Shown here: piece after piece, positions 60,611 to 64,000 of the stretch
How the letters are laid out: every line of letters starts with the position of its first letter
Position numbering within the stretch: the stretch's first letter is position 1
Assembly: GCF_021295335.1 (NCBI RefSeq)
Contig: NZ_JAIWOT010000001.1
Location: 3,185,501 to 3,249,500, forward strand
Reading direction: 5' to 3'
Length of the DNA stretch: 64,000 nt
DNA from: Komagataeibacter sp. FNDCF1
GTDB lineage: Bacteria > Pseudomonadota > Alphaproteobacteria > Acetobacterales > Acetobacteraceae
Position numbers and translations under genes: made by a program
Notes under the pieces: model-generated
The model's database searches: none
What the model was told of the DNA's origin: nothing
Seen by the model: the letters and a program-made list of their open reading frames with translations, nothing else

Positions 60611-60722
60611 CAAGGGGGCTGGCAGTGCGGTCAAAGGCATATTATGACATTTGTGCGCGGACAGTTTCAGTCTATGGCTGTCGGCACAGACCGGTCCTGT
60701 TGCGTGTGGAGAAAACAGTTAC

Positions 60723-61730
60723 ATGTCACGCCCCCTGAAGGTTGCCGTCCAGATGGACCCGCTTGACGGTATCGACATCAATGGCGATTCAACCTTTGCC
60801 ATGATGCTCGAGGCCCAGGCACGGGGGTACGAACTGTTCGTCTATCAGGTCGAGGCGCTGAGCCTGAGCGAGGGACGCACCACCCCCCGCGGCCAGCGCA
60901 CGGACCGTGTCACCGCCCGCGCCCGCCCGGTTGCGGTGCAGCGGAGGGCGGGTGATCATGCCACCTTCGGCGCGGAGCAGGTGATCGACCTGTCCGGCAT
61001 GGACGTGGTGCTGATGCGCCAGGACCCGCCATTCGACATGGCTTACATCACGGCCACCCATATCCTTGAGCATATTCATGGCGTGGGCCCGGACCGGGCG
61101 CTGGTGGTCAACAATCCCGCCGCCGTACGCAATGCGCCCGAAAAGATACTGGTCACGCACTATCCCGACCTGATGCCGCCGACGCTGGTGACGTGGGATA
61201 TAAAGGCCATACTGGAATTCCGTGCAAAGTGGCGTGACATCATCGTCAAGCCGCTGTTCGGCAACGGGGGGGCGGGTGTGTTCCGCATCCGTGAGGATGA
61301 CCCCAATCTCAACGCCCTGCTGGAAATGCACTTTGCCCGCTCCCGCGAGCCGTTGATGATCCAGCGCTATGAACCCGCCGTGCGCAGGGGGGACAAGCGG
61401 ATCATCCTGGTCGATGGCAGCCCGGTCGGCGCGATTGACCGCATCCCGGCGGAAGGCGAGACCCGGTCCAACATGCATGTGGGCGGAAAGGCGGTCCGGG
61501 CGGAACTGACCGCGCGTGACCGGGAGATCTGCGCGGCCATCGGGCCGATGCTGCGCGATGAGGGGCTTATTTTTGTAGGAATCGACGTGATCGGTGAATG
61601 GTTGACCGAGATCAATGTCACCTCACCGACCGGCCTGCAGGAAATCGACCGATTTGACGGTATCAATACCGCAGGCCTGATCTGGGATGCGATCGAGGGC
61701 AGGCTGGAGACGGGTGCGCCGGTCGCATAG
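60723..61730 (+). CDS. gshB: Glutathione synthetase
   Basis: A 335-residue ATP-grasp enzyme joining gamma-glutamylcysteine and glycine. The N-terminal part has [22 protein letters not shown]. The ATP-binding part contains [70 protein letters not shown] and [14 protein letters not shown]. Glutathione also serves the gloA enzyme encoded at 28.7 kb. A 112-base gap separates it from greB. Confidence 0.97.
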
Positions 61731-61956
61731 GACAGGGAAAAAACGGTGTCCATGGCAGGCACGGTGGTCGTGACTGCCGCGCCATGTGGCATGGCATCGG
61801 GTATGGATTACAGGCGGTTGTGCGGGCCAGGGGGCGCGCGGGCATGTCAGGTGGAATTGCAATGCAGCAGAACGGGACGGATTTGATCATGGCAGGTGCA
61901 GCACGAGAGCGGGCCGGATGCGTCATCTTCCATGCCCAGGACATGGGAGCAGCCTG

Positions 61957-62670
61957 ATGAGCGACGTCCTGCATGACGAGACCGCCGAGAAGGTCGTGGA
62001 AATCCCGTCCCCCAAATCCGCGATGGATGCCGATGCGGTCCGGGCGGCCTATCGCCGCTGGGCGGGCGTGTATGATGCGCTGTTCGGTGGTATTTCCGCC
62101 TTCGGGCGCAAGCGTGCGGTCGAGGCGGTGAACGCGCTGCCCGGCAGGCGGGTGCTGGAAGTGGGCGTCGGTACCGGCCTTGCGCTGCCGTATTACCGTG
62201 CGGACAAGCGGATTACCGGCATCGACCTGTCGGGGGACATGCTGGAGCGTGCCCGCCAGCGTGTGCGTCGCCTCAGGCTTTCCAATGTCGACAACCTGCT
62301 GGAAATGGATGCCGAGGCAACCCAGTTCGACGATGGCACGTTCGATATCGCGGTTGCAATGTTCGTGGCCTCCGTCGTGCCGCACCCGCGTGCCTTGCTG
62401 AGCGAACTCAAGCGCGTGGTCCGGCCGGGCGGGCACATCCTGTTCGTCAATCACTTCCTGGCGCAGGGCGGCGTGCGGCTGGCGGTGGAGCGTGGCATGG
62501 CGCGTGCCTCGCATTCACTGGGCTGGCACCCGGATTTCGCCATCGAATCCCTGCTGCCCCCGGGTGACCTGCGGCGCGCGACCCTGCAGCCCGTCCCGCC
62601 GGCGGGGCTTTTCACCCTTGTCACGCTGGAGCGTGAGGCAGGCTCCAGCGCAAGTCCGATGGTGGCCTGA
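61957..62670 (+). CDS. pmtA: Phosphatidylethanolamine N-methyltransferase, PmtA type
   Basis: A 237-residue class I SAM-dependent methyltransferase. Motif I is VLEVGVGTGLALPYY (about residue 68), and motif II-like GIDLSGDMLERARQRV follows. VAMFVASVVPHPRALLSELKRVVRPGGHILFVNHF and LGWHPDFAIESLL match the Rhodobacter-type PmtA that methylates phosphatidylethanolamine to phosphatidylcholine. Phosphatidylcholine is a membrane lipid of acetic acid bacteria and is linked to acid tolerance. The ATG at 61957 overlaps the stop of a small upstream frame. GGAG lies eight bases ahead. Confidence 0.85.
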   Translation: MSDVLHDETAEKVVEIPSPKSAMDADAVRAAYRRWAGVYDALFGGISAFGRKRAVEAVNALPGRRVLEVGVGTGLALPYYRADKRITGIDLSGDMLERARQRVRRLRLSNVDNLLEMDAEATQFDDGTFDIAVAMFVASVVPHPRALLSELKRVVRPGGHILFVNHFLAQGGVRLAVERGMARASHSLGWHPDFAIESLLPPGDLRRATLQPVPPAGLFTLVTLEREAGSSASPMVA

Positions 62671-62703
62671 ACACAGGCTGCAGGAACCATGCGCCAGCCG
62701 GAC

Positions 62704-62726
62704 AGCCCTGCCCCTGGGGCAGGGCT
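62704..62726 (+). terminator. Hairpin after pmtA
   Basis: AGCCCTGCCCC and GGGGCAGGGCT are almost back to back and perfectly complementary, 34 bases after the pmtA stop. There is no T-run, so it may be a weak terminator or mRNA-stabilising hairpin. Confidence 0.45.
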
Positions 62727-62857
62727 GAAATGACATTTGCGCGACCACTGGCACGGTCTGCAGGGTCGTTTTTATGTGCCGGTCGCGGTATATGATGAAA
62801 ACATGGTAACGATTGGCCATGCCGGAAAGCCGGGCATGGCAGCAGGGAGTACATCGC

Positions 62858-64000
62858 ATGCCCACAGGCACACGGTTCGGGGCAGATGACGTGCGGGGGG
62901 CCGCCACGTCCTGTAGCTACAGGACTGTCGGCATGCTGTACCTGGTCATGGCGATCGTGGCGGGCATGGCTGGCGGCCTGCTTGCCGTGGGCCTGCAGGC
63001 CGGGCTGCTGCCGCACGGGTTGGTCGCGGCATGGGCTGGTGGTGATGCGGCGGGGGCGGCGGACCGCATAGCTCGCCGCCACGGCATGATGATGGTGTTC
63101 TTCTGTGCGCTGCCGGCCCTGACCGGCGGGTTCGGGAACTGGTTCGTGCCGCTTCTGCTGCGTGCCCGCGCGCTGGCCTTCCCGCGCATGGCCCTGGTGG
63201 CCTGGGCGCTGGTCGCAGGCGGGTTCGTGGCGGTCATGGCTGGCCTGTCTCCCGCCGTTGCCCCGCAGGTTTCGGTTTTCGCCCTGATCGCGTGGTGCCT
63301 TGGCATGCTGCTGCAGGCCATCGGCATGATTGCCACCATTCTCAACATGGGCCCGGTGGACCAGCGGCTGCGTGACCTGCCCATGTTCGTATGGGCGCAG
63401 GGACTTGCGGCCATGATGGCCGTCATGGTCATGCCGGTACTGGCGGGCGGGCTGACGCGCATCGTGCTTGCCGGTGGTGACATGGGCGCGCAGATCGATG
63501 CGCTGCTGCATGTCTTCGCCGGTCCCGAGATCGCCCTGCTGCTGCTGCCGTCCATCGGCATCGTATCACAGGTTATCGAGACATTTTCCACCGTTCCCCT
63601 GCAGATGCCGCGTGTGGTGCTCGGCGTGCTGACCGTCATGTCGGTGGGCGGGGCATCGGTCTGGGTGCATGACCTGCTGCATGGCGGGCTGGAGCACATG
63701 GTGGCGCCTGCGGCCATGGTGCAGCTGGGGCTGATCGTGCTGCCGGTACTGGCTGTTCTGGCTGCCTGGGGGCAGACGGTGCGCGTGGGGCGGGTGCGGT
63801 CCTCCGTGTCGATGGAATGGGCGGCGGGTTTCGTGGCGCTACTGCTGGCGGGCACGGTCATGTCGCTGCTGCCCGGTGGCATGGCGGACGTGCACGCGGC
63901 CACGCTGTATGCGGCCGTGTTCGCGCTGTTCACCGGCTTTTATTACTGGATTGGCAAGATGGTGGGCCATGTGGCCCCTGTGGGTGCCAGCCGTGTGCAT
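62858..64000 (+). CDS. Heme-copper oxidase subunit I homologue lacking Cu-B ligands (cut by window edge)
   Basis: The frame is open for 381 codons from an ATG preceded by AGGGAG and continues beyond the window. The polytopic protein aligns block by block with cytochrome oxidase subunit I: RHGMMMVFFCALP keeps the heme-a histidine (His75), and GGFGNWFVP and LAFPRM follow. LPMFVWAQ, MPVLAGGLTR, and LLPSIGIVSQVIETFS are later blocks. The Cu-B/active-site motif GHPEVY has become AGPEIA (Gly222 for His, Ala226 for the cross-linked Tyr). The paired histidines WAHHM have become WVHDL (His271 kept, Asp272). Oxygen reduction at Cu-B is therefore unlikely; a heme-binding or regulatory role, or decay, is inferred. 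The heme a3 and second heme-a histidines lie outside the window. Confidence 0.85.
   Translation, partial: MPTGTRFGADDVRGAATSCSYRTVGMLYLVMAIVAGMAGGLLAVGLQAGLLPHGLVAAWAGGDAAGAADRIARRHGMMMVFFCALPALTGGFGNWFVPLLLRARALAFPRMALVAWALVAGGFVAVMAGLSPAVAPQVSVFALIAWCLGMLLQAIGMIATILNMGPVDQRLRDLPMFVWAQGLAAMMAVMVMPVLAGGLTRIVLAGGDMGAQIDALLHVFAGPEIALLLLPSIGIVSQVIETFSTVPLQMPRVVLGVLTVMSVGGASVWVHDLLHGGLEHMVAPAAMVQLGLIVLPVLAVLAAWGQTVRVGRVRSSVSMEWAAGFVALLLAGTVMSLLPGGMADVHAATLYAAVFALFTGFYYWIGKMVGHVAPVGASRVH

Follow-up and report, generated by a model that had tools for sequence, protein, structure and literature searches.

A cytochrome oxidase subunit I without its catalytic residues keeps the low-spin heme histidines beside heme O synthase in Komagataeibacter and its relatives

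Introduction

Why is a gene for subunit I of a heme-copper oxidase kept open beside the gene for heme O synthase when most residues of its catalytic site are gone? The question is raised by ctaD', which lies at the end of a 64,000-nucleotide stretch of the Komagataeibacter sp. FNDCF1 genome (hereafter the window; G000:C1:3185501-3249500 of a 3.74 Mb genome). According to a passage in PMC4007555, acetic acid bacteria have no aa3 oxidase. Passages of PMC10715153 (Degli Esposti et al. 2023), which cite Matsutani 2014, describe a deranged COX1-like protein that is retained with CtaB and has lost all metal ligands. A passage in PMC3751514 gives A. pasteurianus 386B a subunit I only (APA386B_609) and calls its cytochrome c oxidase 'probably inactive', and in an excerpt of PMC5158111 ctaB (APT_01774) and ctaD (APT_01775) are conserved in A. 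pasteurianus. Background on heme insertion is found in passages of PMC9145763 and PMC5249081. The first-pass annotation of the window, which stated that it knew of no function described for a protein like this, was therefore half right: the gene had been printed as a deranged COX1-like gene with CtaB (PMC10715153), but the passages do not mention retention of the low-spin His pair, and no description of the retained pair was found in the open-licence literature.

Results

The ctaD' frame starts with ATG at 62858 and occupies 62858..64000 (+ strand), so that codons 1-381 of 454 lie in the window, as first annotated. Past position 64000 the frame stays open as far as a stop codon whose last base lies 222 bases outside the window (L005:2358-3722), and in this genome that codon overlaps the ctaB start; the heme O synthase encoded by ctaB scored 329.3 bits against TIGR01473 (cut-off 210.3). 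Genes for subunits II and III, about which the annotation had asked, do not follow: ctaB follows, and the single PF00510 and the single PF00116 match of the genome (COX3/COX2 search) both lie within the cyo cluster. The ctaD' product scored 118 bits against PF00115 (COX1 superfamily), above the gathering cut-off of 34.8, and 134.7 bits against the CtaD equivalog TIGR02891, under the curated cut-off of 670.75. When seven diverse CtaD' were scanned with PF00115, four scored above the cut-off and three scored below it or gave no match. Long minus-strand open frames also lie opposite ctaD' (window 62621-63511 and 62917-63933); such antisense frames are common where DNA is GC-rich, and these were not counted as genes.

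The ligand residues were numbered on CyoB of the same genome (L006), with functional labels (CuB, heme ligands, cross-link Tyr, K-channel, formyl contact) that we take to be the accepted ones. His75 (63080..63082, +) corresponds to CyoB His106, axial ligand 1 of the low-spin heme, and His346 (63893..63895, +) corresponds to CyoB His421, axial ligand 2; they are presumably the equivalents of bovine H61 and H378. In GPEIA 222-226 (63521..63535, +), Gly stands in place of a CuB His and Ala in place of the cross-link Tyr, and in His271-Asp272 (63668..63673, +) the second CuB His is retained and Asp replaces the third. Asp344 (63887..63889, +) stands where CyoB has His419, the proximal ligand of the high-spin heme, so that helix X reads D344-V-H346: the H-x-H motif expected there is lost at its high-spin position and kept at its low-spin one. 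The helix X His was also placed independently on the second His of HFH when a profile of 40 CtaD' was aligned to solved structures. The annotation had read His75, GPEIA and the HD pair correctly, and it had asked about G222, A226 and D272; neither these three nor H271, D344, H75 and H346 vary among the 14 sequences used from the same genus.

Relatives were sought within the family in 299 genomes, in 397 genomes and in 60 chosen ones, and short-frame CtaD' relatives were found in 18 genera. Regions were taken from 41 genomes (our own and 40 others); one locus, L164 (G078), was rejected as a CtaD' since it encodes an ordinary CtaD with HPEVY and HH, which left 40 CtaD' in the counts. The clear named orthologues were those of Komagataeibacter xylinus and K. 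intermedius (80-81% identity) and of Gluconacetobacter diazotrophicus PA1 5 (49%), three among the best 80 of 594 stretches, and from these named matches we infer that genus g1 is Komagataeibacter and g43 is Gluconacetobacter.

Both low-spin ligands, H106 and H421, are present in 40/40 CtaD'. The catalytic residues are mostly gone (H284 0/40, Y288 0/40, H333 16/40, H334 1/40, H419 1/40), as is K362 of the K-channel (0/40), and the helix I R80, which we take to be the formyl contact, is retained in 5/40. R481/R482, presumably on the propionate side, occur in none of the 40 and are deleted in 38, and one loop Trp, whose role we likewise presume, is deleted in all 40; the heme pocket must therefore differ from the canonical one. 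Ordinary CtaD keep these ligand-set residues in 79-80 of 80 sequences. Among the 166 columns that are at least 98% conserved in ordinary CtaD, four are invariant in the 40 CtaD' (H106, W230, W331 and H421), and the chance that the His pair would be among the four survivors is about 4e-4 if all columns are equal. The ungapped spacing is constant from 75 to 98 and from 346 to 364 (40/40), and the CtaD' poorest in His has three in total.

The same pattern was seen in 20 further sequences, all found with the CtaD' profile, of which 19 were unseen and one (L207, from G214) had been seen already, relatives that are not independent: H106 and H421 were present in 20/20, H284, Y288 and K362 in 0/20, H419 and H334 in 1/20 each, and H333 in 4/20. 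Both His lie inside one open frame in 60/60 sequences; seven search matches crossed a stop codon, and the open frame used covers both His in 7/7. CtaD' is thus predicted to have no functional A-type oxidase site, its CuB, high-spin His, cross-link Tyr and K-channel Lys being gone, and it probably binds one heme through the two His. We infer that this would be a heme b or a heme o and not a heme a, because heme A synthase is missing from 16 of the 40 genomes and the Arg of helix I is kept in 5/40 only.

As a separate observation, W230 and W331 (W179 and W269 of our protein) are kept just as strictly as the two heme ligands, in 40/40 and again in 20/20.

An AF2 model built from the 40-row alignment reached pLDDT 90 and pTM 0.91 with helices throughout. 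Compared by Foldseek and VIA-align, the model superposed on the aa3 subunit I 1ar1_A with Z 41.1 and an rmsd of 2.9 A over 423 residues, so that CtaD' is predicted to keep the fold of oxidase subunit I. The framework had been annotated as aligning without gaps; the helices do align, but our CtaD' lacks four stretches: the loop between helices III and IV, some of the loop between helices V and VI, roughly 13 residues ahead of helix X, and the Arg-Arg segment.

ctaD' lies directly 5' of ctaB in 40/40 genomes with its frame open in every one, and the two genes share a 4-base stop/start overlap in 27/40. Upstream lie a gene that we take to be methyltransferase-like (61786..62670, +) and one that we take to be a gshB-like ATP-grasp gene (60651..61730, +); both are constant neighbours, and the order gshB-like, methyltransferase, ctaD', ctaB holds in 39/39 loci besides L005, with a TIM44-like gene downstream in 35 of the 39. 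In ordinary CtaD loci, some of which end early, ctaD is followed by ctaB in 19/26 and a methyltransferase match is nearby in 9/26; the small gap between ctaD and ctaB in such loci was measured in six. Since the ctaD-ctaB order is ancestral, as the 19/26 canonical loci indicate, adjacency is weak evidence of partnership. In a tree with 80 ordinary CtaD, the 40 CtaD' formed one clade with support 1.0, on long branches and with no settled sister. The synteny with ordinary ctaD loci makes ctaD' the ctaD gene itself and rules out the ordinary paralogue that had been annotated; by gene order and sequence, ctaD' is read as the vertically inherited ctaD of a lost aa3 oxidase.

Selection on ctaD' was estimated as omega (MG+F3X4). 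In 14 Komagataeibacter genomes, omega was 0.112 for ctaD' and 0.047 for ctaB, and with four g73 sequences added the values were 0.118 and 0.054. Fixing omega at 1 for the 14 Komagataeibacter ctaD' gave lnL -8756.33 vs -8013.95 when it was free. In groups of three or four sequences each, in some of which synonymous sites are probably near saturation, omega was 0.066 (g41), 0.142 (g31), 0.077 (g55), 0.125 (g85 with g9) and 0.209 (g43), and omega 1 was far worse in each. CtaD' is under strong purifying selection, with omega 0.07-0.21 in six groups, yet its rate of change is about four times that of CtaB (mean distance 1.86 vs 0.43). The suggestion that the gene is conserved and catalytically silent rather than decaying is borne out by the 40/40 open frames, by omega far below 1, and by the loss of H284 and Y288 across 18 genera. 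The annotation would have called it a recent pseudogene if related species kept HPEVY and HH or if the frame broke soon past the window edge; neither was the case.

The only other subunit I of our genome is CyoB. It is encoded in the bo3 operon cyoABCD (L006:4043-7957), which lies about 57 kb from ctaD' and includes no cyoE, so that heme O has to be supplied through the ctaB next to ctaD'. Each of the 40 genomes has a single heme O synthase above cut-off, the copy adjoining ctaD'. Heme A synthase (ctaA) is present in 24 of the 40 CtaD' genomes and absent from 16, so a heme A connection is unsupported and heme A is not needed for ctaD' to be retained.

One genome, G001 (g2), has kept ctaB together with two long genes for a bo3-type subunit I, which encode HPEVY and the CyoB motif HFHNV. 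At its locus L187 (G001:C7:142651-155499), ctaD' is cleanly absent between the methyltransferase gene and ctaB; this natural deletion with ctaB kept indicates that ctaD' is not strictly essential and is dispensable there.

Ten genomes without a CtaD' match were added for co-occurrence. Seven of them have no ctaB above cut-off, and at 1e-10 the CtaD' query found nothing in any of the seven. A PF00115 search of these seven detected a COX1-family protein in five (G029, G116, G066, G076 and G002) and none in G070 and G210. In the small genomes G029, G116 and G066 (L215, L216 and L217), the only COX1-family protein is a frame of 785-833 aa without HPEVY, which is therefore not an A-type oxidase. 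Of the other three added genomes, G001 is short of ctaD' alone, G077 has an ordinary oxidase cluster, and in G031 ctaB sits at the contig start, which makes it uninformative on ctaD'. The co-loss of ctaD' and ctaB with bo3 is only suggestive. A mirror-tree comparison of the 32 of 39 non-own loci with all genes showed no co-evolution specific to CtaB (partial r 0.258 for ctaB and 0.424 for gshB-like).

Discussion

We propose that the ctaD of the lost cytochrome c oxidase became, by vertical descent, a one-heme membrane protein. The catalytic site has been lost and the loops on the subunit II side deleted, with the helix scaffold and the low-spin His pair kept under purifying selection. CtaD' would work with CtaB, holding heme b (the substrate) or heme o (the product) in the membrane; such holding would smooth heme O synthesis and the loading of the bo3 quinol oxidase, and translational coupling would match the amounts of CtaD' and CtaB. 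A role in heme insertion or assembly, as first annotated, appears plausible because ctaD' lies directly 5' of the only ctaB above cut-off in 40/40 genomes. Taken whole, the statement that a one-heme CtaD' descends from a lost oxidase and handles heme with CtaB seems to us evenly balanced between right and wrong. A bolder version, in which this copper-free one-heme subunit I would be a new membrane cytochrome that accepts heme b/o or offers it at CtaB and loads bo3, a chaperone made from a dead oxidase, is possible but rather doubtful.

The main alternative, put forward in print by Degli Esposti et al. 2023 (a passage of PMC10715153), is that CtaD' is a heme-free scaffold kept solely to stabilise CtaB physically. 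Both the constant adjacency to ctaB (40/40) and the rapid sequence change with the fold retained are in its favor. However, a scaffold gives no reason for low-spin His that are invariant in 40/40 and 20/20 sequences while the other active-site His, Tyr and Lys are lost, and G001 has ctaB without ctaD'; we consider it unlikely, though to be taken seriously. CtaD' could instead be a one-heme electron-transfer cytochrome, not specially tied to CtaB, that passes electrons, for example from quinol to some unknown acceptor or to an enzyme that modifies heme. In oxidases, electrons enter at the low-spin heme. Deletion of the loops on the subunit II side and of the Arg pair would expose the heme edge, but no acceptor-binding feature was noticed, ctaD' stays with ctaB in 40/40 genomes, and in the 16/40 where heme A synthase is absent it cannot be serving that enzyme; on balance this role is quite improbable.

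Matsutani 2014 is said to have read the Acetobacter COX1-like protein as a loss of function, and the catalytic residues lost, the deletions, the fast evolution and the clean loss of ctaD' in G001 would all suit a decaying relic. Frames that are open in 40/40 genomes, a single frame over both His in 60/60 sequences, an invariant His pair, and omega of 0.07-0.21 in six groups, with omega = 1 far worse, refute this, barring a sequencing or selection artefact common to the genomes, and we regard decay as very improbable. The 4-base overlap in 27/40 genomes might also mean that the frame is kept just to bring ribosomes to ctaB. A translational leader needs an open frame, not constrained residues; the suppressed nonsynonymous change and the kept fold lead us to reject it, and it is the least credible of these readings.

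Compared with known systems, the one-heme protein that we propose shares with the Paracoccus aa3 subunit I (1ar1_A; CtaD/COX1) its fold, its helix framework and both low-spin His, and with A-type CtaD loci the order ctaD then ctaB (19/26) and a nearby methyltransferase match (9/26). Unlike A-type CtaD, it has no CuB His284/His334, Tyr288, high-spin His or K-channel Lys, its subunit II-side loops are deleted, and in our genome it has no COX2/COX3 gene of its own. CyoB, the bo3 subunit I of the same genome, belongs to the same superfamily and has the same low-spin His pair, but all its ligands are present and it sits in cyoABCD. The deranged COX1-like protein of Acetobacter is likewise an orphan subunit I adjoining ctaB in acetic acid bacteria, and judging from gene order and family-wide sampling its gene is almost certainly ctaD'. 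The passage in print has all its ligands lost, whereas the low-spin pair is invariant in CtaD' and selection is demonstrated; retention of the pair thus corrects the statement of total ligand loss in that passage (PMC10715153). The gene and its association with CtaB were already known, and the invariant low-spin pair and the selection are added here. The main texts of two papers on Gluconobacter transposon collections (PMC8602642 and PMC12041372) do not mention cytochrome, heme or ctaB.

CtaD' would represent a subunit I reduced to the heme at which electrons enter. A natural subunit I with the low-spin site alone, coupled to CtaB, in harmless industrial bacteria would make heme loading directly testable. 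Some ctaD'-bearing genomes encode a further long oxidase subunit I, in frames of 608, 544 and 551 aa (G215:C1:939514-941010, G388:C1:1458610-1459866 and G073:C23:171833-173125). A MAG titled Asaia bogorensis (L044) has an ordinary aa3-type ctaD with HPEVY and HH, and it may be mislabelled.
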